From Staphylococcus carnosus (lineage in GTDB: Bacteria; Bacillota; Bacilli; Staphylococcales; Staphylococcaceae): a stretch of 64,000 nt of DNA. Where the stretch lies: assembly GCF_900458435.1 (NCBI RefSeq), contig NZ_UHCT01000001.1:2046001-2110000 (forward strand), given 5' to 3'. The position numbers were made by a program, and so were the translations under genes. Below the pieces are notes generated by a model that searched no databases, was not told the DNA's origin, and worked only from the letters and a program-made list of their open reading frames with translations. The stretch's first letter is position 1. The number at the start of each line of letters is the position of its first letter. Shown piece by piece: positions 5,069 to 25,322 of the stretch.

Positions 5069-7174
5069 CTATACATTCCAACTAATATCGAAAGATAAAT
5101 AGTTTACGTTTGCATCTGTTCTCCAACCAGTTGCCGGCGCATTTACGACTAAATGATACGTTCCAAAATCTTTTGCTTCTGCAGCAGTCGAAATTCTTGC
5201 TTGTGCTACTTCTGTTGCCCCATTAGAATTACCAACAAATATTAAAAATGGTTTGGTTAAATTCGTAGTTAAAGCATTTGTATATAAAGTTTCAGGGGTT
5301 TCTGTAAATGGTAAGTTAATTTTAATTGGTTCTTTAACAAGTTGATTTGTGTTTTCATCAAATTTAGCGATAAATCTGGCATACACTGACCAATCAACTT
5401 TTCTTCCAACTCTATGAGCTTTACTTGATGACAAGGAAGTTAAACCAGTTATATTTGATGATAGTTGAGCCAATGATTTATTTTGTCTGTGATAATTAAT
5501 ATCAAATAGTCTATATGGTGCTTGTATACCTATACCATTTGAGCCTTCGTAAAAAATACCAGCTTGTGGTTGGTATACCAATCCTGCAATCATAGTTGAA
5601 TTTGCAATGTAATTTAGTGGTTGTCTTGAAGGATTAGGGAACATCACTTTACTTGTTGCTACACTATCATCTTTAGTCATACCATTAACAAATGAGTTTC
5701 TAAAGCCAACTGAATAGATATACCATTCCACTGCTTCTGCACCATAGTTATTGAATGTGTTGTATTGACCGTCTAAAGCTACAATGAAAGTCTTTTTGCC
5801 ATTTAATTCACTTGGTAAGAAACTAGGTGCATTTCCAATAGCCCCGTCGCCTTGCAATGTTTCAGCATAAATATTATTGAAGAAATTACCGTCAGTTTCT
5901 CTTAATAAAAAACCAATCCATGTACGTGCAACTCTGAAATTATTAAATGTATTTCTGTTATTATTGAATTTATTCATGAAATATCCTACGCCTAAGTCAA
6001 CACAGATTTGAGCGTGAATAATGTGGAAGTTATCAAAAATATTATAGTGGTTTCCTGCGCCATGTGTGAATTGTAAACCTGTGCCAACGTATTCCATCCA
6101 AATATTTTTAATTCTGTTCATTGACGCACTACTAGGCTCGGTAGTTGAAGGATCTTGACCTATATATATCCCGACCTGACAATCATTTATACTGATATCC
6201 TCTATAATATTATTTGAGCCATATAACGACAACGCTGCTTGATGTGGCAATTTCTCTTTCGACGTATAATCTGCTGGAATTTTACCGGATTTTCTTGTAA
6301 GAATACTGTCTTTACCATTTCCGTATATTTTAATACCAAATCTGTAATTGTATGATGTCATGTGTTTAGTTTCTAAATTTTTAGATATATAAAAAGTACC
6401 TGACGGAATAAAAATAGTGCTTCCGTCTATTTCTGCCTCTTTTATAGCGTCTTGAATTATTTGGTAATTGTCTGTTGTACCGTCGCCGATTGCACCTCGT
6501 GCTACGATATTAATAACTCGTTGTGTGTTGTTTAATTTAACATCTGAATTATTTAACCTTTCATTTAGACTATTAAAATTGTCTCTAGCATTAATAACCT
6601 CACTGTCAACTTGTTTAGCAGATGATAATTTTTCAAATTCTTCAGATACTCGATTTTCTGTATATGGAATTAATAAATCTTTAACATCATTAGGGTCTGC
6701 GTCTTGTCCTTTGAAATCATCTGGGTTTTCTTCAATTATTCTACGAACAGTATCTTCAACTAAGTTGACGCTTATTTCTTTTTCAACAGCACCTTCTATA
6801 CCAGAATCAAGGATATTGAAGTTAAAATTAGCAACGTGAACAGAACGCTCTTTAGATTCAAGGAATAACTTCGCATCAACTTTACCTATGTGCTTAATGA
6901 TTTTTGTAGGAATGATGTATTGGATTAGCCCGCTTTCAGGTAGAACAACATCCACTGGTTCATTCAGAAATATTGATTTATCTTGCAGGAATAAGTCTAA
7001 TCGTGGTTTCATATCTATTGTGTTTAGATTAACTGGTTGTCCATTCCAGTTAATGTAGATACGGATAGAACTTGTGTTGTCATCCTCTGTGTAAAAATTA
7101 GCGCCAATGTTTCCTAAATCTACACTTTTATTATTGATGTTCGCTTGTACATCTTTATTTTTAAATATAGTCAT
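5069..7174 (-). CDS. BppU-type baseplate protein with beta-helix receptor region
   Basis: About 701 residues from ATG 7174 (GGGAGTGA upstream). The N-terminal ~110 residues form a BppU baseplate-attachment domain; next comes a helical linker (about 140-215), then a right-handed beta-helix/pectate-lyase-like domain starting near ARGAIGDGTTDN. This modular plan fits a tail fibre or receptor-binding protein hung on the baseplate, possibly acting on wall teichoic acid or surface polysaccharide. Its N-terminal domain is paralogous to that of 8601-10025. It is bracketed by two identical hairpins. Confidence 0.8.
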   Translation of the reverse strand: MTIFKNKDVQANINNKSVDLGNIGANFYTEDDNTSSIRIYINWNGQPVNLNTIDMKPRLDLFLQDKSIFLNEPVDVVLPESGLIQYIIPTKIIKHIGKVDAKLFLESKERSVHVANFNFNILDSGIEGAVEKEISVNLVEDTVRRIIEENPDDFKGQDADPNDVKDLLIPYTENRVSEEFEKLSSAKQVDSEVINARDNFNSLNERLNNSDVKLNNTQRVINIVARGAIGDGTTDNYQIIQDAIKEAEIDGSTIFIPSGTFYISKNLETKHMTSYNYRFGIKIYGNGKDSILTRKSGKIPADYTSKEKLPHQAALSLYGSNNIIEDISINDCQVGIYIGQDPSTTEPSSASMNRIKNIWMEYVGTGLQFTHGAGNHYNIFDNFHIIHAQICVDLGVGYFMNKFNNNRNTFNNFRVARTWIGFLLRETDGNFFNNIYAETLQGDGAIGNAPSFLPSELNGKKTFIVALDGQYNTFNNYGAEAVEWYIYSVGFRNSFVNGMTKDDSVATSKVMFPNPSRQPLNYIANSTMIAGLVYQPQAGIFYEGSNGIGIQAPYRLFDINYHRQNKSLAQLSSNITGLTSLSSSKAHRVGRKVDWSVYARFIAKFDENTNQLVKEPIKINLPFTETPETLYTNALTTNLTKPFLIFVGNSNGATEVAQARISTAAEAKDFGTYHLVVNAPATGWRTDANVNYLSFDISWNV

Positions 7175-13774: not shown

Positions 13775-14608
13775 CTACCTATAAATAAAAGGGAAGATAA
13801 ACTGGATATTAACACCACTTACACTTCCCCAAATTTCAAAATCATTATAACCAGGTGCTAACGTGATAATGCCATGATTGGTTAATCTGCCACATCGTTT
13901 TGTTTCAATATAAGGATAAGCACCATCTAGTAAAAAACTTTGATTGGTTTCTAACTTACCTTTATATTCGAAAATATCACCTGTTGTTTTATTAACTAGC
14001 CTAAATCCTGTTGTAGTGTTTAACCTAATCCATATCTGTAATTCGTGTCGTAATCTAGGGTCTATGGTATCGTCACTGCCATTGAATATTGAAAATTTCT
14101 GTCTGTTGTGCGTATAAGCAATCTCATTATCAGGCATAACGCCACTTTCAAATTGCCATTTATCTGACATTAAAGAAAACTGATCTGTTTTATATAGCGA
14201 TTCTGAATAGCCCTTATAGACTTGAAAAGTGACTTCAAATTCCATAGATGCAAAATCTTTCACATTAGTTGCTATATTTGGTGTAGCGACTGCAAACTTT
14301 TTATTAGGTATATCAGACGTTACTACTGAATAGTGTTTTCTTCTGAAAAACAAACGTCTTAGTTTCTGTTCTGCTAAATACACATCTTCTACATCTTGTG
14401 AATCTAAACCAAATCGTAAAACTAAATTAAAAGGTGCGAAACTAATCGCACCTGGTATCTCTCCATCTAAGCCATTTATTACTAATTTATTATCATTGTA
14501 GTTAGGGTAGTCTTGTTTTGTATCTAAAAATATAAAACCAGGCAGCGCTTCATTTACATCAATCGTACCTGTATCGGTTAATAACTTTAACCATTTATCA
14601 TTTATCAA
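13775..14608 (-). CDS. Distal tail protein (Dit)
   Basis: 277 residues with the Sipho_tail/Dit pattern: an N-terminal ring-forming half with LVINGLDGEIPGA and the RRLFFRRKHYSVV region, and a galectin-like C-terminal half. It starts at TTG 14608, overlapping the tape-measure stop. Dit forms the hexameric hub on which the baseplate assembles. Confidence 0.85.
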   Translation of the reverse strand: MINDKWLKLLTDTGTIDVNEALPGFIFLDTKQDYPNYNDNKLVINGLDGEIPGAISFAPFNLVLRFGLDSQDVEDVYLAEQKLRRLFFRRKHYSVVTSDIPNKKFAVATPNIATNVKDFASMEFEVTFQVYKGYSESLYKTDQFSLMSDKWQFESGVMPDNEIAYTHNRQKFSIFNGSDDTIDPRLRHELQIWIRLNTTTGFRLVNKTTGDIFEYKGKLETNQSFLLDGAYPYIETKRCGRLTNHGIITLAPGYNDFEIWGSVSGVNIQFIFPFIYR

Positions 14609-17600
14609 ACTATGCTGCCCCCTTTACTATAAGCTTCTAGCGATATGCTATTACCGTTTTTCTTGTTGAAATGTTTATTTAAACTATCACCATCAATACC
14701 AACAGGTAGATTCTGAACAACATTAATCAATGTTTGAGTTAAGTTATTATTCTGTGCATTAAGTGAAATGTTTTGTTGTAATAAACGTTCAATTGTTGAA
14801 TTGTCATTGTTTACAGTTACTTCTGTTTTACCTTTATTCATACCAACATAGCTCATAGCTTGTTCAATTAATTGAATCGCACGGTTACGACGAGTCAAAG
14901 GTACAACCATTTCTGGTTTGTTTCCTTCGCCGATTTCAGCAATCTGATGTTTCGTAACCATACCACCGTTAGCATAAGGACCTCCTACACCGATAGTACT
15001 TAACATTCTTCCGCCATAACGAGCCTTTGCATAACGCATACCGGCAATCAAGTTATCTAAACCATTCAATACATTACCATGCCCTGGAAGTTTATATGCG
15101 TTGAACGTACCAGGTTTAACTTGTACTAAACCACGCGGTGTACCCTCTGAACTTCCTGGTCCTGTTGCACTTGGATTACCAGATGATTCAGTATTGATTT
15201 GTCTTAACCAAGCATTCGCATAAGCAGAATTGGCAGGTAGTCCAGCAAGTCTCAATGCTTGCATTACTTCTGGTCTCCATGCACTTACTTCTCTAGGCGC
15301 AGAACTTTTACCGCCTTTTTTACCTGGATGTGCTTTCAACCATTTTATAGGGTTAATAGGTCTGCCGTTTTGATGCATTTCATAGTGTAAATACGGACCA
15401 GTAGATGCACCAGTGTTACCTGAAATACCAAGTTTTGTGCCTGGATGTACTCTTTGTCCTTCATGTACTAACCATTTGCTTAAATGTCCGTAAATAACAT
15501 CCAAATCTCCGCCATGTACTTGAATATAGTGTCCAAATCCGCCCGGCATTTCTTTTGTATGAGCTGTACCGCTGATTGTTGAATAAACTGGTTCGTAAAT
15601 ATAAGGCAAGTCGATACCCGGATGTGGCCAGTTAAAAGCATATCCTGGTGGCGGTCCGTTAGGACTGTACGGCGTATTGATTCCTCTTGATAAATCAATC
15701 CATCCTCCAGCACCGTCTCCGCCTGATTCGTCAAACCATGATTGCACTTTATCAACTAATTTTTTCTTCAGAATTGAATAAGCACCTTTAGCCATTTTTA
15801 CTGTTGCGTTGTCTCCGCCACCGAAGTTGATACCCATTTTATCCATAACTTTCTCAACAAGTTTACCTGGATTCTCTAAGAATTCACCAACATCTTTAGT
15901 AACACCTTTGATTCCGCCCCATATTCCGGAAGCCATATCTTCGGCACTTTCAACAGCATCATTTCCTACCTCTTTAGCTTTTTCAATAACATTTTTAGAC
16001 TTGTCTTTGACTACTTTTTTAGCAACTTGAGAACCTTTTGTTGCATCTTTAACTAAAGATTGAAGTGGATGCTCTAAATAATCATCCAGTTTCTTTTTGA
16101 ATGATCCTTTGGCAAATCGAGGAATAGAACCTTTTGAGAGTTTAGGTATCATACCCATATTCTGCATACGTTGTGTAGCCGTACCGTTAATTACACCGTC
16201 ACCTTTGTTGAGTTTAACAATGACATCACGACCTTGCGGTGCATGCAATGAGCCGTCTGCACGTTGAATTAACTCTTGATGTCCGTTTGAACCACTTCCG
16301 TTTCCTGGACCTCTATCATTTACCAGTGCCATTGTCGGTGCCATAACACCGCCATTACTGTCCGTTGCTAATGATGAGCCGTCGAATGTACCTGTGGATA
16401 AAGTGGGGATAGGCTTAATAAGTGTTTTATCAGTAATCGCTTTGGCAATGTTGTTAATACCGCCAATCATACTGTTCAAACCGCCGATTGCTTTGTTAGC
16501 AACTTCTTTACCTAAACTTGAAGCAGCAGAACCGAAATCTTTCTTGATGTTTTTAATCCAACCTAAAGTTTTATCAAGCCAACTTTTCCAACTACCAAAA
16601 GTCTTTTTAGCTTTTTCTTCGGCTTGTGCAGCAATTTCTTTAAAGCGGTCAGTCGCTTTATTTTTCATGTTTTGGAAATTCTCTTTAGAATTACTGTAAG
16701 TTTTGCCGAACCACTTCTTGCCTGAATTGAATACACTCTTAGATTTTTCTTCTGCTTTATTAGCTATATCACCGTATCTTGACTTGGTATTATTCCACAT
16801 GTTCTTAAAGTTTTCTTTAGCATTACCATATGTTTTACCAAACCATTTTTTACCAGAGTTAAACACACTATGTGTTTTTTTTTCAACTTTATTAGCAATA
16901 TCGCCGAATCTATCTTTAGTCGTATTCCATGTATTTTTGAAATTGGATTTAGCATTTGCAGTAGTATTCCCAAACCACTTCTTAGCAGAGTTATAAGCAT
17001 TTCTAGTAGATGAGCCTATCTTGCTACTGATTTTATTCCAGTTATCGTCAGTATTCTTCTTAGCAGACTTGAACCAACTGGAAGTCTTGCCTGGAAGTTG
17101 TCCGAGCCACTTCCTACTGTTATTGAAAGCACTCTTAGTCGAACTTGAAATTTTATTACTGATTTTGTTCCAGTTATCATCTGTATGTTTCTTAGTTGAT
17201 TTGAACCAGCTTGAAGTTTTTCCAGGTAATTGACCGAACCATTTCTTAGTGTTGTTTAATGCGTTTCTAGAAGATGAACTAATCTTACTGCTTATCTTAT
17301 TCCACTTGTCATCTGTATGCTTTTTAGTAGATTCGAACCATCCAGATACTCTACCAGGCAATTGGCCGAACCATTTCTTAGCGTTGTTCAAACCATTTTT
17401 AGTAGCAGAACCGATTTTATTAGAAATATTATCCCAGGTCTTTTTGGTAGTAATCCAAATTTTCGCACCTTTAACAACTGTTGTATCAATCATCTTCTGC
17501 CAACCAGTTTTTACTTTACCAGTTTGAGAATCAATATTTGCGCCTACACCTTTATTTTGCTTTTTAGCTTCATTCACTACATCTTTATGTTGTTTCTTGG

Positions 17601-18813
17601 CTTTGTCTTTTGACTCATCATATTGTTTCTTAGCATTTTTTATTACTTTGTCGGCTTGTTCTTTTGAAAGTGTTCCATTCTGATCACGTTGTTTGATTGC
17701 TTCGGCCACAGTATCTTTATACTTTTTCTTGGCATCAGAAATAGTCTTATCTCTTTCTTTCGCACTTTCTTTAATAACATTAGAAGCTGCTTGAATAGAT
17801 AACTTACTCTTGTTTTGTTTCATTCTTTCTAAAATTGCTTTTTGTTCAACCTCGCCTTTAGACATAGATTTAACAACTTTAGAATCGAGTTGTGTTTGAA
17901 GTTCTTCAATCTGTTTGATTTCAGACTTTTTCAATGCTCTATGTTCATCATGAGCTTTTTTGTATATAGCTTGAATTTTTTCTTGTGTCTTTTGAATACT
18001 TGCCGATTCTTTTTCATTTTGTTGTTGTGCTTGCGCTATAATTTTAGCTTCTTGCTTTTTAGTTAAACCGTTAGTGTCTCTAAAGATTTTATTCAGTCCG
18101 GATATTTCTTTATCATGGCGACTATCAAGTTGCTTGCTTATCTCATCACCCATTTTTTTATAAATGTTAGTAATTTGTTGATACTGTTCATTACTGATTT
18201 TTCCATGATGGAGTTTGATTTCTTCAAGTTTCAAAGTGGATTGTTTAGAAAGTTTATTATAAGATTTCAAAGCTTTTTCAGTGCCTTTAGATACTCCTTT
18301 AGCAAACACATCAGTTGTGTCTGAAGCTTTTGAAACCATTTTATCTAAACCATCAAAACTTTTCTTAATACCTTTGAATAATAAGCCTTCTTGTAAACCT
18401 TTGGCCATATCGTTTTTGAAGTCGTCCCAGAACTTGCCCATTTTGTCTTTAGCTTTATCAATCCAAGAAAAGTCCATACTATCTCCGACTTGTTTTACAA
18501 GTTTCCCCATATTGTCGAAGCCTTTTCTGAACCAATCCATTTTTTCATAGGCTACACCGAAAATAGTCGTAAGTATTGTAAGGGGAACGCCGACTTTACC
18601 TATAATTTTAGTACCGGTTTTCAATGTATTACCTAAACCACCGAATTTACCGGTTGTTTTCATAATTGTGTTAGTAAATGAGCCGAACAAACCAGTAGAT
18701 CCTTTGACAGATTTTCCGGTTGTCACAAAAGATGCTGCCGCACCTTTGTTAGCAGTAGCGTTAACGGCTGCTTCTGCAGTATTGATTGCCATTTGTCTGT
18801 TTAATGAAGCCAT
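14605..18813 (-). CDS. Tape measure protein, C-terminal part (frameshifted)
   Basis: 1,402 residues forming the distal part of a tape measure. Order: hydrophobic segments (about 40-90), coiled coil (190-430), about seven degenerate ~40-44-residue repeats with W-x-K-I-S and KKWFGQLPG or KKWFGKTYG (about 450-760), a hydrophobic/Gly region, an M23 peptidase domain (about 1010-1130: GIDLP, GHLSKW, LHYEMH) and a C-terminal lytic transglycosylase/SLT domain (about 1145-1260: NTESSGNP). The frame is off by one base from the upstream 701-aa frame. Deleting one A from the A4 run at 18818-18821 joins them into 2,086 residues. The ATG at 18813 has no good ribosome site. Confidence 0.85.
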   Translation of the reverse strand: MASLNRQMAINTAEAAVNATANKGAAASFVTTGKSVKGSTGLFGSFTNTIMKTTGKFGGLGNTLKTGTKIIGKVGVPLTILTTIFGVAYEKMDWFRKGFDNMGKLVKQVGDSMDFSWIDKAKDKMGKFWDDFKNDMAKGLQEGLLFKGIKKSFDGLDKMVSKASDTTDVFAKGVSKGTEKALKSYNKLSKQSTLKLEEIKLHHGKISNEQYQQITNIYKKMGDEISKQLDSRHDKEISGLNKIFRDTNGLTKKQEAKIIAQAQQQNEKESASIQKTQEKIQAIYKKAHDEHRALKKSEIKQIEELQTQLDSKVVKSMSKGEVEQKAILERMKQNKSKLSIQAASNVIKESAKERDKTISDAKKKYKDTVAEAIKQRDQNGTLSKEQADKVIKNAKKQYDESKDKAKKQHKDVVNEAKKQNKGVGANIDSQTGKVKTGWQKMIDTTVVKGAKIWITTKKTWDNISNKIGSATKNGLNNAKKWFGQLPGRVSGWFESTKKHTDDKWNKISSKISSSSRNALNNTKKWFGQLPGKTSSWFKSTKKHTDDNWNKISNKISSSTKSAFNNSRKWLGQLPGKTSSWFKSAKKNTDDNWNKISSKIGSSTRNAYNSAKKWFGNTTANAKSNFKNTWNTTKDRFGDIANKVEKKTHSVFNSGKKWFGKTYGNAKENFKNMWNNTKSRYGDIANKAEEKSKSVFNSGKKWFGKTYSNSKENFQNMKNKATDRFKEIAAQAEEKAKKTFGSWKSWLDKTLGWIKNIKKDFGSAASSLGKEVANKAIGGLNSMIGGINNIAKAITDKTLIKPIPTLSTGTFDGSSLATDSNGGVMAPTMALVNDRGPGNGSGSNGHQELIQRADGSLHAPQGRDVIVKLNKGDGVINGTATQRMQNMGMIPKLSKGSIPRFAKGSFKKKLDDYLEHPLQSLVKDATKGSQVAKKVVKDKSKNVIEKAKEVGNDAVESAEDMASGIWGGIKGVTKDVGEFLENPGKLVEKVMDKMGINFGGGDNATVKMAKGAYSILKKKLVDKVQSWFDESGGDGAGGWIDLSRGINTPYSPNGPPPGYAFNWPHPGIDLPYIYEPVYSTISGTAHTKEMPGGFGHYIQVHGGDLDVIYGHLSKWLVHEGQRVHPGTKLGISGNTGASTGPYLHYEMHQNGRPINPIKWLKAHPGKKGGKSSAPREVSAWRPEVMQALRLAGLPANSAYANAWLRQINTESSGNPSATGPGSSEGTPRGLVQVKPGTFNAYKLPGHGNVLNGLDNLIAGMRYAKARYGGRMLSTIGVGGPYANGGMVTKHQIAEIGEGNKPEMVVPLTRRNRAIQLIEQAMSYVGMNKGKTEVTVNNDNSTIERLLQQNISLNAQNNNLTQTLINVVQNLPVGIDGDSLNKHFNKKNGNSISLEAYSKGGSIV

Positions 18814-20866
18814 AACCTTTTGCAGCGCTTCCGACCGCTCTAAGTACCAATCCTAGTCCTAAAACAACAGGTCCTAATGCAGCTGCAAAAAGCCCCATTC
18901 CGATTGCACCCTTACGAACCCAACCCGGCAAACTACTGAAACCTTCCACAAAGCCTTGAATACCTTTAGCAGCGCCTTGAATTGCCGGTGTTAAGTCTTT
19001 ACCGACTTGAATACCTAAAGTTTCAAACGCACCTTTCAATTGTTCTAGTGCACCTTTGAGGTTATTCTTCATCTGGTCTGCTGCTTTCTTACTTGCACCG
19101 TCTGAATTTTTAAGGGAATCACTGTATTGATTAACTTTGTCTGGTCCCGCTTCAATCAATGCTAAGAAACCACTTGCAGCTTCTGTACCTACCACAGTAG
19201 AGACGTTGGCAAGTTTCTGTTCTTTCGTCATTCCTTTCATTTCTTCACGGAATTGACCAACCAAATTACCCATGCCGACAAATTTTCCTTCATTATCAGT
19301 TAAGTGAATGCCCATTTTCTCAATTTCTTTCGCAGCCTTACCCGTAGGATTAGCTAATCTAATGAATGAGGCACGAAGTACAGTACCGGCAGTAGAACCA
19401 TCTAACCCAGCATTCGACATGATTTCAATTGCTGCAGAAGTATCTTCAATAGACACACCTAACGCTTTGGCAGGTGTACCCGCATATTTTAATGCTTCAC
19501 CCATGTAACTAATATCAGCAGCACTGTCATTTGCAGCAGTCGCTAATAAATCAGCCACATGTGATGAGTCGCTTGCTTTGAGGTTGAATGAGTTGATAGA
19601 TGAAGCCATAACAGTTGCAGTAGTTGCCATATCTGCACCACTGGCTTCGGCTGCACTGATGACTCCAGGCATTGCTGACATCACTTGGTTAGCGTTAAAC
19701 CCTAAAGCAGCTAACTCTTCCATGCCTTTAGCTACTTCAGATGCCGATTGACTAGTTTTTGCGCCTAACTCCATAGCTTGATTGGACATAGCTTTCATTT
19801 CTCCGCCACTCGCTTGTGCAATTGCACCTACACGTGACATCTGCGCTTCGAAGTCTGCACTTATTTTAACTGCTGCACCTAATCCGGCTACAATAGGAGT
19901 TGTAACGCCCATAGTCATGTTACGACCAACATCAGTCATCTTACTTCCGATTGTTCCGAATTTCCCCGCCATATTATCCATATGATCCGCTGTCTTTGTG
20001 TACTGACTGTTGGCAATCGTCTGCTCTTTGTTAAACTCTTTCATTTCGCTTGTTGTTTTGTCGATTGCTCTTTGAAGATTATTTAAAGAAGCTTTCTCAT
20101 TATTAACTTGATTTTCTGCCGCAGCTAAGTTTTTATTGTGGTCTTTGATTGTTTTATTAACGTCATTGTATTCTTTTTCAGTCTGTTTCAACTCTTTGTT
20201 TGTTTTATCATAAGTTGATTTAACTTTTTCATTGGAATCTGATAACTTTTTGTTTTCACCACGTAATTTTTCTACTTGCGTTTCTTCTTTTTTATATCTC
20301 TCATCAAGTTCTTTATGTTTTTGAGATTGTTTTTCTACCGCTTCGCTTGCTCTCTTAAGTTGCGTTGTTGTAGCCTTGTTGCTATTCTTTAATTCTTTTT
20401 CTGCTTTCTTTAGCTTTTCTAACCTTTGAGCAGCTTTTTCTCTTTGATTATTCGTACGGTTGGATTGAGTTTCTGCCTTTTTTAATTCTCGATTGCTTTC
20501 TTTCAAACTTGCATTAGATTTTTCTAACGCTTGTTTGTTTTTCTGGTTAGCAGCAGTCAGTGACTTGTAAGCTTGTTCAACACCTTTGACTCGGCTTGTT
20601 GCTTTAGCGTAGTTAGCATTCAGTTCTTTCAGTTCACTTTCGGCTTGATTGAACATTTGTTTTTGTACTTTCATCTTATTGTTCAATCCGTCTATTTTGG
20701 CTTTGTACTGATCCATTGAGCGCTCAGCTTTATCAAATGCAGATAAATTAGCTTTCATCTCACTGTTAACCACACCTAACTGACGTTTCAAACCTTTCAT
20801 ACCTTCTTGTACGCCTAAGGAATCAAGCTTCATCTCTAACGTTAAACCTTGCAGTTTTTCGTTCAT
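18761..20866 (-). CDS. Tape measure protein, N-terminal part (TP901 core)
   Basis: 701 residues from ATG 20866 with AAAGGAGGG upstream. A long coiled coil (about 20-300) is followed by the TP901/PhageMin_Tail core (about 310-600, with AQMSRVGAIAQASGG and MEELAALGFNANQVMS) and a hydrophobic stretch near the end. The last ~17 residues are out-of-frame sequence before a stop; the true continuation is the 1,402-aa frame. Either the gene is broken, it is recoded, or the base call is wrong. Confidence 0.85.
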   Translation of the reverse strand: MNEKLQGLTLEMKLDSLGVQEGMKGLKRQLGVVNSEMKANLSAFDKAERSMDQYKAKIDGLNNKMKVQKQMFNQAESELKELNANYAKATSRVKGVEQAYKSLTAANQKNKQALEKSNASLKESNRELKKAETQSNRTNNQREKAAQRLEKLKKAEKELKNSNKATTTQLKRASEAVEKQSQKHKELDERYKKEETQVEKLRGENKKLSDSNEKVKSTYDKTNKELKQTEKEYNDVNKTIKDHNKNLAAAENQVNNEKASLNNLQRAIDKTTSEMKEFNKEQTIANSQYTKTADHMDNMAGKFGTIGSKMTDVGRNMTMGVTTPIVAGLGAAVKISADFEAQMSRVGAIAQASGGEMKAMSNQAMELGAKTSQSASEVAKGMEELAALGFNANQVMSAMPGVISAAEASGADMATTATVMASSINSFNLKASDSSHVADLLATAANDSAADISYMGEALKYAGTPAKALGVSIEDTSAAIEIMSNAGLDGSTAGTVLRASFIRLANPTGKAAKEIEKMGIHLTDNEGKFVGMGNLVGQFREEMKGMTKEQKLANVSTVVGTEAASGFLALIEAGPDKVNQYSDSLKNSDGASKKAADQMKNNLKGALEQLKGAFETLGIQVGKDLTPAIQGAAKGIQGFVEGFSSLPGWVRKGAIGMGLFAAALGPVVLGLGLVLRAVGSAAKGYGFIKQTNGNQYCRSSR

Positions 20867-21462: not shown

Positions 21463-21492
21463 AAAAGACGCAGTGTATTAAACTGCGTCCGT
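21463..21492 (-). terminator. Hairpin terminator after the Ig-like gene
   Basis: Stem GACGCAGT/ACTGCGTC, overlapping the stop codon at 21478, with a run of seven T on the minus strand. It would lower transcription entering the chaperone and tape-measure genes. Confidence 0.65.
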
Positions 21493-21939
21493 AGTAACTG
21501 TGATGTTGATTGTTCCAGTTTTACCACTTCCGTCATCAGCTTTAGCAGTGATTACTGCTTTGCCTTCAGCTGCACCATGAATAGCGCCTGTTTTAGCGTC
21601 CACAGTGACAATATCAGTGCTATCTGATGTGTAAGTCACTGATTTATTAGTTGCTGTAGTCGGTGCTACAACAGCTTTAACAGAATCGTCTGCACCTGTC
21701 TTGATTTCTTTAGTATTCGGGCTAAAAGAAATACCGGTAACTAAAATAGGATTAGTTTTGAAAGTCGGTACATCCACTTTATCGGATTCGGCACCATCTT
21801 CTTCAAAGGCTACTTGGTAAGTACCTTTCGGATATTCAGTGTCAGCATTCAAACCAGAAACGGAGACAGTCAAACGACCCTCTCCGTCTTGTGTGCCTAC
21901 AACCTCATCATCTTTATATACTTTTAATGTTTTGACCAT
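21478..21939 (-). CDS. Ig-like (BIG2) tail decoration protein
   Basis: 153 residues. Residues about 65-150 form a bacterial Ig-like group 2 domain (VTGISFSPNTKEIKTG..., SDSTDIVTVDAKTGAIHG); the first 60 residues look like a second beta-sandwich. It lies directly downstream of the major tail gene with its own ribosome site AAGGAG, 18 bp after the end of that gene's +1 extension. Such domains decorate tail tubes and may bind cell-surface glycans. Confidence 0.8.
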   Translation of the reverse strand: MVKTLKVYKDDEVVGTQDGEGRLTVSVSGLNADTEYPKGTYQVAFEEDGAESDKVDVPTFKTNPILVTGISFSPNTKEIKTGADDSVKAVVAPTTATNKSVTYTSDSTDIVTVDAKTGAIHGAAEGKAVITAKADDGSGKTGTINITVTTDAV

Positions 21940-21957
21940 AATATCAACTCCTTGCCC

Positions 21958-22024
21958 CTATTCAGCAGATATATTAACGGATTTTGCATTAGGTTCCGCT
22001 TCTACATTTTGGGGATTAGCTGGG
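21958..22024 (-). CDS. +1 frameshift extension of the major tail protein
   Basis: The zero frame ends ACA CCC AGC TAA. A +1 slip on the proline codon (CCC to CCA, 22021-22024) opens a frame of 20 codons, ANPQNVEAEPNAKSVNISAE, ending at TAG 21958. The tail is related to that made by the same trick at the capsid gene (PQNV, AKS and ISAE shared). Listeria phage PSA is the known precedent. Confidence 0.75.
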
Positions 22025-22657
22025 TGTACCAGTACCTTCTTCATCTGAATTTTTTAAAGAATCTGTGTAACCGACAAACACTTTCTTGAAGAATTCATCT
22101 TCTCCATCTTTGCCTTCATGGTAACCATAAACGATACCTTGGTTTTCACCGTCAACTTCGATAGTGCGGTTCATCCAGTCTCCAGTTAATTTCGTTGGTT
22201 CTGGCGCTTCTGCTTTTTCACCTTTCGTTTTGAATTCAATTGAATCTAAACTGAAAGTACCTTTCAATAACGCTACATATACAGGTTCGCCAGTTAAACC
22301 GTCCTCAGATACTCCAATCATAGCAACGTAAGGTGCGCGAGTGTTTTCGCCTACCCAAGCAGTGCCGTTTTGGTCTTTCTCACGTCCTAATACTGCGTTT
22401 AAATCATCACTCGGAATGTTGAAAATATCCATATCCGATTTAACTTCATTTGTACCTTGTTTTTTCATCCAAACACGTTTGTTTGAAGCGAACATGTCAA
22501 CCAATTCTGGTGCTAAACCAGTAATGTTAAGGTTGACTGTACCACCGTTTTCGTCTTTCCATTCAAATTGCTTTTCTACTGTTTGACCGTCTTTGCCGTA
22601 TACGCCGACTAAAACTTTTTTGAAACCTACTTTATATGAGCCTTGTCCATTTGCCAT
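22016..22657 (-). CDS. Major tail (tube) protein
   Basis: 213 residues in the zero frame from ATG 22657 (GGAGG upstream). The N-terminal MANGQGSYKVGFKKVLVGVY and beta-rich body fit phage major tail tube proteins of the phi13/TP901 type, and the gene lies between the tail terminator and the Ig-like gene. A longer form by +1 frameshift is predicted. Confidence 0.85.
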   Translation of the reverse strand: MANGQGSYKVGFKKVLVGVYGKDGQTVEKQFEWKDENGGTVNLNITGLAPELVDMFASNKRVWMKKQGTNEVKSDMDIFNIPSDDLNAVLGREKDQNGTAWVGENTRAPYVAMIGVSEDGLTGEPVYVALLKGTFSLDSIEFKTKGEKAEAPEPTKLTGDWMNRTIEVDGENQGIVYGYHEGKDGEDEFFKKVFVGYTDSLKNSDEEGTGTPS

Positions 22658-24131: not shown

Positions 24132-24142
24132 ATAATCGCCCC

Positions 24143-24209
24143 CTATTCCGCAGAAATAGAAGCAGATTTACTCTTTGCGTCTACTCCTACATTTTGGGGA
24201 GTATTAGGG
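24143..24209 (-). CDS. +1 frameshift extension of the major capsid protein
   Basis: The zero frame ends ACT CCC TAA. A +1 slip of the proline tRNA (CCC to CCT) at this stop opens 20 codons, NTPQNVGVDAKSKSASISAE, to TAG 24143. An RNA hairpin (TACTCC/GGAGTA, 24182-24203) begins immediately after the shift site and could stimulate it. A proline CCC next to a stop plus a downstream structure is the arrangement described for the capsid gene of Listeria phage PSA. Confidence 0.75.
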
Positions 24210-25322
24210 AGTAGTAGAGTCGATTGCTAAGTCATATACTGCAGCAACTTTGTTATCTTTCGCTTTACCGTAAGCAAATTGTTTAGCAGTGAATAAATTC
24301 ATATCTTCGATTGCTAAAGTCTGTTCGAATTTTTGAATGTTGATGCCTCCGCCTAAATAACCATCGTAGCGACCTTTAACGTAAGTTAAAACTTTGCCAG
24401 GAGTTTGTGCGATTGATTCGATTACATTCAAGTTGTAAGGCAATGCAGTTACATATACACCGTTAGCATTTAAATGCGTGTATTGTGCTTGGATATCGAA
24501 GGCGTCTGATGGATTCACAACCATTGTTACGTTCCCTTTAACGACCACTGAATGACCTTTTTCATTAGTTGAATGGAATTTGAATACTTTAGTCAATTCT
24601 TTAACCGTTGTTTCAGAATCTTTGAAAGTTAAAGTGCCTTCTGATTCTTTTTCTGGATAAACGCCACCAGTAACGGACACACCTTCTTGTACTTGACGGT
24701 TCAATCCGATTGGTTGGTCTTTACCAGTACCGTTCAAGAATGCAGCTTCTAAAGCTACTGCGAATGCTTCTTCAATTTGTAAGCGAACAAATTGTTCAAT
24801 CCATGCTGGACCGAAGTCTTGCAAGTCTTTAGGTAATACTACAAATGCTGTTAATTTGTTTTGGATTGCAGTTTCTTCACTGAATGCAGCATCTAATTGA
24901 CCTTTGATGTCGCCAAAGATTTTACCCCAAACCGCAACGCCTGATGTTTCTGATTTCAAGAATTTCAAACGTAATCCAGCGTTTTTGATTCCTAAGTCTG
25001 CAAGTAATGGATGTTCTGTTGTTAAATCTTCAAAGATGCGATCAATCGTTTCTTCAGGTAATAATTTCTCTTCTTTGTAACCTACTTCTGTATTGATTTC
25101 GTTGAAGAATTTGCGTTGTTGTGCAGTTAATTGTTTATCTGCATTCGGCAGACTCGCAATTGCTTCCGCTTCTTGTTTCGCATGTTTCTTTGATTCTTCG
25201 AATAATTCGTTAATCATTTGGCCATACAATTCGGCTTGTTTTTCTTCTGTTTCACCTTGTGACAATGCGTTCAAAAATTCTTCGCGCGCTGTCTTGAATT
25301 CATCTGATAATTTGATAGTCAT
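24204..25322 (-). CDS. Major capsid protein (HK97 fold)
   Basis: 372 residues in the zero frame. The N-terminal ~75 residues are a charged helical scaffold-like delta domain; the rest follows the HK97 capsid pattern (LPEETIDRIFEDL, LKSETSG, FAVALEAAFLNGTG). The upstream ClpP-type protease probably removes the N-terminal part during maturation. A 392-residue form is predicted from the +1 frameshift site at the stop codon. Confidence 0.92.
   Translation of the reverse strand: MTIKLSDEFKTAREEFLNALSQGETEEKQAELYGQMINELFEESKKHAKQEAEAIASLPNADKQLTAQQRKFFNEINTEVGYKEEKLLPEETIDRIFEDLTTEHPLLADLGIKNAGLRLKFLKSETSGVAVWGKIFGDIKGQLDAAFSEETAIQNKLTAFVVLPKDLQDFGPAWIEQFVRLQIEEAFAVALEAAFLNGTGKDQPIGLNRQVQEGVSVTGGVYPEKESEGTLTFKDSETTVKELTKVFKFHSTNEKGHSVVVKGNVTMVVNPSDAFDIQAQYTHLNANGVYVTALPYNLNVIESIAQTPGKVLTYVKGRYDGYLGGGINIQKFEQTLAIEDMNLFTAKQFAYGKAKDNKVAAVYDLAIDSTTP

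Follow-up and report, generated by a model that had tools for sequence, protein, structure and literature searches.

A shared frameshift extension of phage capsid and tail proteins as a probable docking tag for a split FN3 domain

Introduction

Why should the major capsid gene and the major tail gene of one phage locus both end in a CCC codon at or near the stop, with a related open stretch of 20 codons behind it in the +1 frame? The locus lies in a 64,000-nucleotide stretch of Staphylococcus carnosus DNA, the whole of which is called the window here (RefSeq assembly GCF_900458435.1, contig NZ_UHCT01000001.1, positions 2,046,001 to 2,110,000 of the forward strand). The capsid gene ends ACT CCC TAA and the tail gene ACA CCC AGC TAA, and a +1 slip at either CCC would add a C-terminal extension, NTPQNVGVDAKSKSASISAE in the capsid protein and ANPQNVEAEPNAKSVNISAE in the tail protein. 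We call these extensions tags, and the receptor is our name for a separate protein whose gene comes immediately after the tail gene. We propose that programmed +1 frameshifting adds the extension as a docking tag, and that a split FN3 domain docks this one immunoglobulin (Ig)-like decoration protein on both head and tail; we put the probability of this explanation at roughly 80%. Coordinates are window positions, and all tail, capsid, tag, and receptor features are on the minus strand (Table 1).

The two tags and their conservation

A sequence-only reading of the tail gene had claimed that slipping at CCC gives a 20-residue extension related to that of the capsid gene, and the sequence confirms it. 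From slip to stop both tags are exactly 20 residues long, and they are identical at 10 of the 20 positions, with PQNV, AKS, and ISAE common to both. A hidden Markov model (HMM) was made with 18 tags from other phage groups, 13 triavirus-type and SpT152 tags being excluded to limit circularity. It placed the two window tags at the top of 2,397 stop-ended window peptides; their scores were 13.1 and 11.5 bits, and the next peptide scored 4.6. Twenty shuffled windows yielded 59,642 peptides, the best of which reached 11.2 bits, near the score of the lower window tag.

The same reading had suggested looking for the motif at the ends of other phage structural genes. A second HMM, with 31 tags from these phages as its training set, found, at a 12-bit cutoff and with near-duplicate contigs included, 424 forward tags among 42,923 peptides from the fetched loci (designated by L numbers). 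The only reverse match among 68,587 peptides was the window's own tail, stored reversed as L001 and omitted from the distribution counts. Most relatives of the tail gene in public genomes and viral contigs retain both extensions in the +1 frame; the tail tag is in the normal frame in L055-L057, L058, and L079, and L063/L064 have neither the capsid nor the tail tag.

The ratio of nonsynonymous to synonymous differences (pN/pS) was computed for pairs of distinct tags 60 to 97% identical, from loci with exactly two tags. In the tag frame it was 0.44 for the first, mostly capsid, +1 tags (304 pairs, 35 distinct tags) and likewise 0.44 for the second, mostly tail, +1 tags (257 pairs, 32 distinct tags), and it was 1.13 to 1.83 in the other two frames. 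Tags that other phages carry in the -1 frame gave 0.54 and 0.39 (41 and 53 pairs; 22 and 24 tags) versus 1.2 to 1.87 in the other frames. Because the ratio is low in the tag frame only, selection acts on the peptide. The capsid and tail tags of the same phage are also more alike (score, 55) than other pairs (29) among 29 chosen cluster representatives, a difference reached in 0 of 20,000 permutations; the two-tag clusters L084, L194, L166, L153, and L072 were left out of this comparison. Concerted evolution of the two tags was considered as a cause and rejected, the own pair being best in only 4 of 11 broad families, and ancestry may suffice. Taken with the RNA covariation and the co-occurrence with the receptor described below, tag conservation and pN/pS strongly support the earlier suggestion of selection for a common function, such as a surface tag or assembly contact.

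The tag as part of an FN3 domain

What that reading missed includes the fit of the tag to FN3 strands A and B. An AlphaFold model of the tag linked to the receptor, run as a single contiguous chain with the intervening TAG read as Gln, is a complete FN3 beta-sandwich. The predicted tag strands span residues 4 to 10 and 14 to 20, and the confidence score (predicted local distance difference test, pLDDT) of the tag is 92 to 97, with means of 92 for residues 1 to 10 and 97 for residues 11 to 20. In structural alignments to cadherin 3lnd_C, the receptor-alone model covered residues 33 to 207, and the linked model covered residues 4 to 207.

Other phages provide intermediates between the window proteins and an intact domain. 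In the SPP1-like Bacillus phage 268TH003, the tail gene ends CCC.TAA and the +1 frame encodes a whole, unsplit FN3 (Pfam fn3 E value, 3e-14; profile positions 2 to 83 of 84). Enterococcus phage BC611 has -1-frame tags ending SVTLTW on capsid and tail, and its receptor is separate; aligned to the 268TH003 FN3, the capsid tag falls at residues 2 to 21, the tail tag at 2 to 20, and the receptor at 26 to 82. The tags of Carnobacterium phage cd2 both align at residues 3 to 21, and its receptor at 26 to 82. The BC611 and cd2 receptors match Pfam fn3 at positions 48 to 82 and 51 to 83 of 84 alone, below the cutoff. The window's receptor half aligns to the intact 268TH003 FN3 as well, with 1 of 500 shuffles as good. 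The window tags are too diverged for direct alignment to FN3, so for them the link rests on the AlphaFold model and the intermediate families. Among the 60 of 695 phage records listed, the name "major tail protein" is often given to the receptor gene, though the tail tube is a different gene.

Frameshift sites, RNA hairpin, and other routes to the tag

By route, 265 of the 424 tags belong to the +1 frame of a long open reading frame (ORF) and 122 to the -1 frame; another 34 are read in the normal frame, with 3 left unassigned. CCC occurs within the last two codons before the stop in 264 of the 265 +1 tags (238 loci; near-duplicates included), the sole detected exception being the cd2 tail (L097, 9799-9866), which reads GCA AAA TAG. 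The sense codon between CCC and stop that had been remarked on at the window tail site is present and is frequent among relatives, occurring in 202 of 265 +1 tags with near-duplicate loci counted. As in recoding of the Listeria phage PSA and Bacillus phage SPP1 type, CCC either abuts the zero-frame stop or is separated from it by one codon at the window sites (CCC TAA and CCC AGC TAA), and extensions of the window type are out of frame and under protein-level selection. Many of the -1 sites have runs such as GGGAAAG, GGGGGAG, or TCAAAA ahead of the stop.

The staphylococcal-group sites share an RNA hairpin, conserved in relatives, that the sequence-only reading had also missed. The alignment comprised 37 distinct +1 sites (20 capsid and 17 tail) from 21 chosen loci, the shifted L196 capsid site having been excluded from 38. 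The hairpin starts 7 bases past the slip codon and has an outer CCCC:GGGG helix and an inner stem of 14 pairs. Across the alignment 89.0% of 666 cells were paired. Shuffles averaged 78.0%, with none of 500 reaching the observed value, and the figure was 37 to 50% in slid versions, over which the hairpin is favored by having been derived from the alignment it was scored on; two-sided changes occur at 12 of the 18 pairs. The tail sites alone (n = 17) gave 89.5% paired versus 79.5% shuffled, again with 0 of 500 as high, and 35 to 48% for slid structures, although on two of the five measures the tail sites did less well, being equaled by 21 and 79 of 500 shuffles. The outer helix is nearly invariant, with one compensated sequence, CCUC:GAGG in Sazerac (19 of 500 shuffles as high). 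The earlier description of the window tail site as having no clear hairpin holds for the single sequence, which folds weakly (z, -0.75) and keeps 12 of 18 pairs; it does not hold for the family, in which a covarying tail-site hairpin exists. The window capsid hairpin is strong, with 0 of 200 shuffles as stable.

Across mixed phage families, the mean share of hairpin pairs formed was 77% for +1 tags (n = 71 distinct), 53% for in-frame tags (n = 21), and 46% for -1 tags (n = 57). The tag Pro codon is CCC in 53 of 70 distinct +1 tags versus 2 of 21 distinct in-frame tags. The family hairpin was not present at the +1 sites of the TV51 type and of cd2. Two further sites deserve mention. The L199 and L200 tail tags are in the normal frame and, unlike other in-frame tags, keep nearly all hairpin pairs; they may have switched only recently from recoded to constitutive tagging, or the sequence may contain an error. 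In the L196 capsid tag, near 5170, CAG stands in place of TAG, the tag is two codons longer, and the hairpin GGGG is kept.

An in-frame tag should be present on all subunits, and frameshifting would therefore set the dose of the tag rather than be its function. An in-frame arrangement of another kind is found in the Kayviruses ISP and 812. In ISP, an in-frame tag closes ORF70, ORF71 has a receptor half at its start and another tag at its end, and ORF72 is a second receptor half; all three are structural proteins confirmed by mass spectrometry according to record FR852584. Tags and receptor halves are found here as in the window, but the Kayviruses are myoviruses, have no frameshift, and use carriers other than the major capsid and tail-tube proteins, and their pieces could form a chain. 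The ORF70-71-72 row (phage ISP, L084 19337-20746; L087; and L093) suggests that half-domains are linked in such a chain on the virions of Kayvirus and Silviavirus. Protein Data Bank entries 9rox and 9roz ("Putative Ig-like protein," 174 residues) match ORF70 residues 2 to 175, without the tag. The neck decoration proteins gp164 and gp56 of phage 812 (PMC12886913) were considered as counterparts and set aside; in the part of that paper available to us they are not the gp151-153 found here, if its numbering is that of the record.

Distribution of tags and receptors

A receptor ORF was present in 228 of the 238 loci, with two tags in 194, one in 32, and none in 2; for the 198 receptor loci with full context, the corresponding numbers were 183, 14, and 1. 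Three of those 14 one-tag loci were inspected by eye, and a second tag was visible in L120 and L154; in L150 there was none beyond the one detected. When each of 39 receptor clusters was represented by its best-tagged locus, 34 had two tags, 3 had one, and 2 had none, and the 37 tagged representatives used the +1 frame, the -1 frame, or the normal frame. The two untagged clusters were the Bacillus phage with the intact domain and Staphylococcus phage S-CoN_Ph12. A further scan of Ph12 (31 kb of 93 kb) found a tag at the end of the major tail gene, in the +1 frame at CCC.TAA (14.8 bits), 16.5 kb from the receptor gene. Eight of the 10 loci without a receptor ORF are tagless, and the other two, L068 and L201, encode receptor sequence (by tblastn) that is cut by the contig end. 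Among the eight, L181, L182, and L238 had been caught only by weak or partial receptor matches, and L064 duplicates L063. Receptor-less PSA, PhiSepi-HH1, and L063 have no tag at the capsid or tail gene, and LP-HM00113468 has none at the tail gene, the one gene read in it. A further search for controls with the PhiSepi-HH1 tail matched a single contig, 100% identical to the query. The window, phi12, Sazerac, phiEf11, and Brochothrix BtpYZU02 have the receptor gene behind the tail gene; SpT152, BC611, TV51, iLp84, TMW 1.706 P2, and cd2 have it behind the capsid gene.

This co-occurrence bears on whether the tag might be a common peptide for some other partner, such as a chaperone, a packaging factor, or the host surface, as its being a short C-terminal end on both proteins would allow. 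We think this unlikely, since tags and receptor are gained and lost together in the loci examined, the receptor is without those strands that the tag supplies in the predicted model, and the BC611 and cd2 tags and receptors are collinear with intact FN3.

About equally unlikely is the explanation that tag and receptor are one polypeptide, with UAG read-through or in-phase reinitiation after the shift fusing FN3-Big_2 to the tail, as in SPP1. The tail tag is in frame with the receptor gene in the window and in many relatives, with TAG and 6 codons between them in the window, and a fused form is encoded by an SPP1-like phage and, in the part of the literature available to us, reported as made by SPP1. 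Against fusion, three stops separate tag and receptor in phi12 and two in L006, the two are out of frame in L002, L049, L052, and L072, and they are far apart in Ph12. In the triavirus-type loci read, moreover, the receptor follows the tail gene and not the capsid gene, families with a capsid-side receptor have a remote tail tag, and none of 79 protein matches to the linked query covered the tag.

That the extensions are functionless remnants of a once-fused FN3 cut by a stop, as the unsplit form in an SPP1-like phage and the many staphylococcal tail tags still in phase with the receptor gene might suggest, or else chance frames, is very improbable given the purifying selection confined to the tag frame, the compensatory changes in the RNA hairpin, and the two tags, some in the normal frame, of 34 of 39 cluster representatives; chance open frames were rejected on the leave-group-out HMM ranking, pN/pS, and covariation.

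Table 1 Features of the window that bear on the tags and the receptor
Feature	Position	Strand	Evidence
Major tail (tube) protein gene, 213 aa, zero frame	22016..22657	-	Pfam Phage_TTP_1, E 2e-16; PHROG 88 major tail protein
Major capsid protein gene, 372 aa, zero frame	24204..25322	-	Pfam Phage_capsid, E 2e-12
Tail-gene CCC slip codon	22022..22024	-	Sequence; CCC near stop in 264/265 +1 tags
Capsid-gene CCC slip codon	24207..24209	-	Sequence
Tail tag, +1 frame after CCC, 20 codons (22020-21961) and TAG (21960-21958); predicted FN3 strands A and B	21958..22020	-	Sequence; pN/pS; AlphaFold
Capsid tag, +1 frame after CCC, 20 codons (24205-24146) and stop TAG	24143..24205	-	Sequence; pN/pS
Tail-tag RNA hairpin, outer helix CCCC:GGGG and inner stem	21955..22014	-	17 tail sites; 12/18 pairs in window
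Capsid-tag RNA hairpin	24140..24199	-	Single-sequence z, -4.62; covariation over 37 sites
Receptor gene, 153 aa, N-terminal half-FN3 (predicted strands C-G), then Big_2	21478..21939	-	PHROG 341, E 3e-53; Big_2, E 3e-13; AlphaFold
Receptor half-FN3, without strands A and B	21751..21939	-	Structure alignment to cadherin 3lnd_C
Receptor Big_2 domain	21517..21741	-	

The tape measure region of the window consists of two overlapping minus-strand ORFs in different frames, 18761-20866 (701 aa) and 14605-18813 (1402 aa). Its phi12 counterpart is one 6.2-kb gene, annotated as a tail fiber protein, and the window gene appears to be interrupted near 18761-18813, or recoded.

Discussion

We suggest the following mechanism for the docking tag. 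A fraction of ribosomes would slip +1, adding FN3 strands A and B to some capsid and tail-tube subunits. Strands C to G would form the N-terminal half of the receptor, which ends in Big_2, and during or after assembly each tag would complete the half-domain of one receptor in the manner of strand complementation. Head and tail would then both display Big_2, in an amount governed by the frameshift, and Big_2 would perhaps serve in cell surface contact. At the level of sequence there are both tags, purifying selection, the family RNA hairpin, the homology of intermediate tags and receptors to an intact SPP1-type FN3, and co-occurrence; completion of FN3 by the tag is a structural prediction. We also consider it likely that phages of several Gram-positive genera have a natural tag-catcher pair derived from one split FN3, and that in the staphylococcal phages the tag mRNA is a frameshift-stimulating hairpin, with the same 60 nucleotides encoding the strands and controlling the dose.

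Several observations weigh against a docking tag. Because homology to tail or receptor was used to gather the loci, the counts describe a nonrandom sample, and receptor-less controls are few (three read at both genes, and LP-HM00113468 read only at the tail). The contiguous chain with TAG as Gln favors intramolecular pairing in the AlphaFold model. No Pfam fn3 match was reported for the window tag and receptor, and alignments to intact FN3 were not significant for the window capsid tag (44 of 500 shuffles as good), the window tail tag (68 of 500), the phi12 tail tag (89 of 500), or the Sazerac capsid tag (171 of 500). With one frame and a single TAG between tag and receptor, a covalent read-through product may be possible in the window itself. 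The Ph12 capsid gene was without a tag in the HMM scan, and the matching of capsid and tail tags within a phage is partly due to ancestry.

Parts of the arrangement are already known. In the portions of the SPP1 literature available to us, the tail-tube gene ends in CCC.UAA, where a +1 shift appends a C-terminal FN3 (gp17.1/gp17.1*; short-to-long ratio, 3:1) (PMC6316719, PMC8718954), for which contact with cell wall carbohydrate was proposed (PMC8718954). In the window, likewise, a +1 shift would occur at a CCC close to the stop of the tail-tube gene and would add predicted FN3 material at the C terminus. SPP1, however, adds 87 residues with a whole FN3, covalently and on the tail, whereas here strands A and B alone would be added, on capsid and tail, with strands C to G on a separate protein. 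Listeria phage PSA, a precedent that the sequence-only reading did not mention, has +1 shifts at CCC near the ends of both the major capsid gene cps and the major tail gene tsh, as far as the available part of PMC5009743 goes, and so resembles the window in both genes. Homology to the PSA extensions was considered and rejected; these resemble neither each other nor the tag, and no tag-HMM match reached 12 bits (L080). The half-FN3 gene was not found in the 14 kb of AJ312240 (PSA) examined. T3, A2, and other phages place Ig-like domains on virions by +1 or -1 recoding, fused to one carrier, and the portion of PMC5009743 available to us does not mention a split domain or a two-carrier tag such as we describe. 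The accessible portions likewise contain no mention of a split Ig domain in the phage 812 neck paper (PMC12886913) and nothing on a split tag in the Enterococcus phage VEsP-1 paper (PMC9865981).

Chaperone-usher pili, through donor-strand complementation, and the engineered SpyTag/SpyCatcher pair both have a peptide that supplies missing strands to an incomplete Ig-like domain. Those are other folds and systems, and the phage tag would be a two-strand FN3 hairpin. A limited check of the open-access literature found no report of a split FN3 tag common to head and tail. While the PSA double +1 shift and the frameshift-appended FN3 of SPP1 are thus established, the identity of the tag as the missing strands of a separate protein appears new.

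If true, the docking tag would account for the matching out-of-frame tails at the capsid and tail genes of many phages. It would also explain why half a domain is what the downstream protein resembles, a protein that the records listed often call a major tail protein. It would represent a testable way to decorate two unrelated surfaces with one protein, in a ratio set by recoding, and would offer natural peptide-domain pairs for phage display and labeling.
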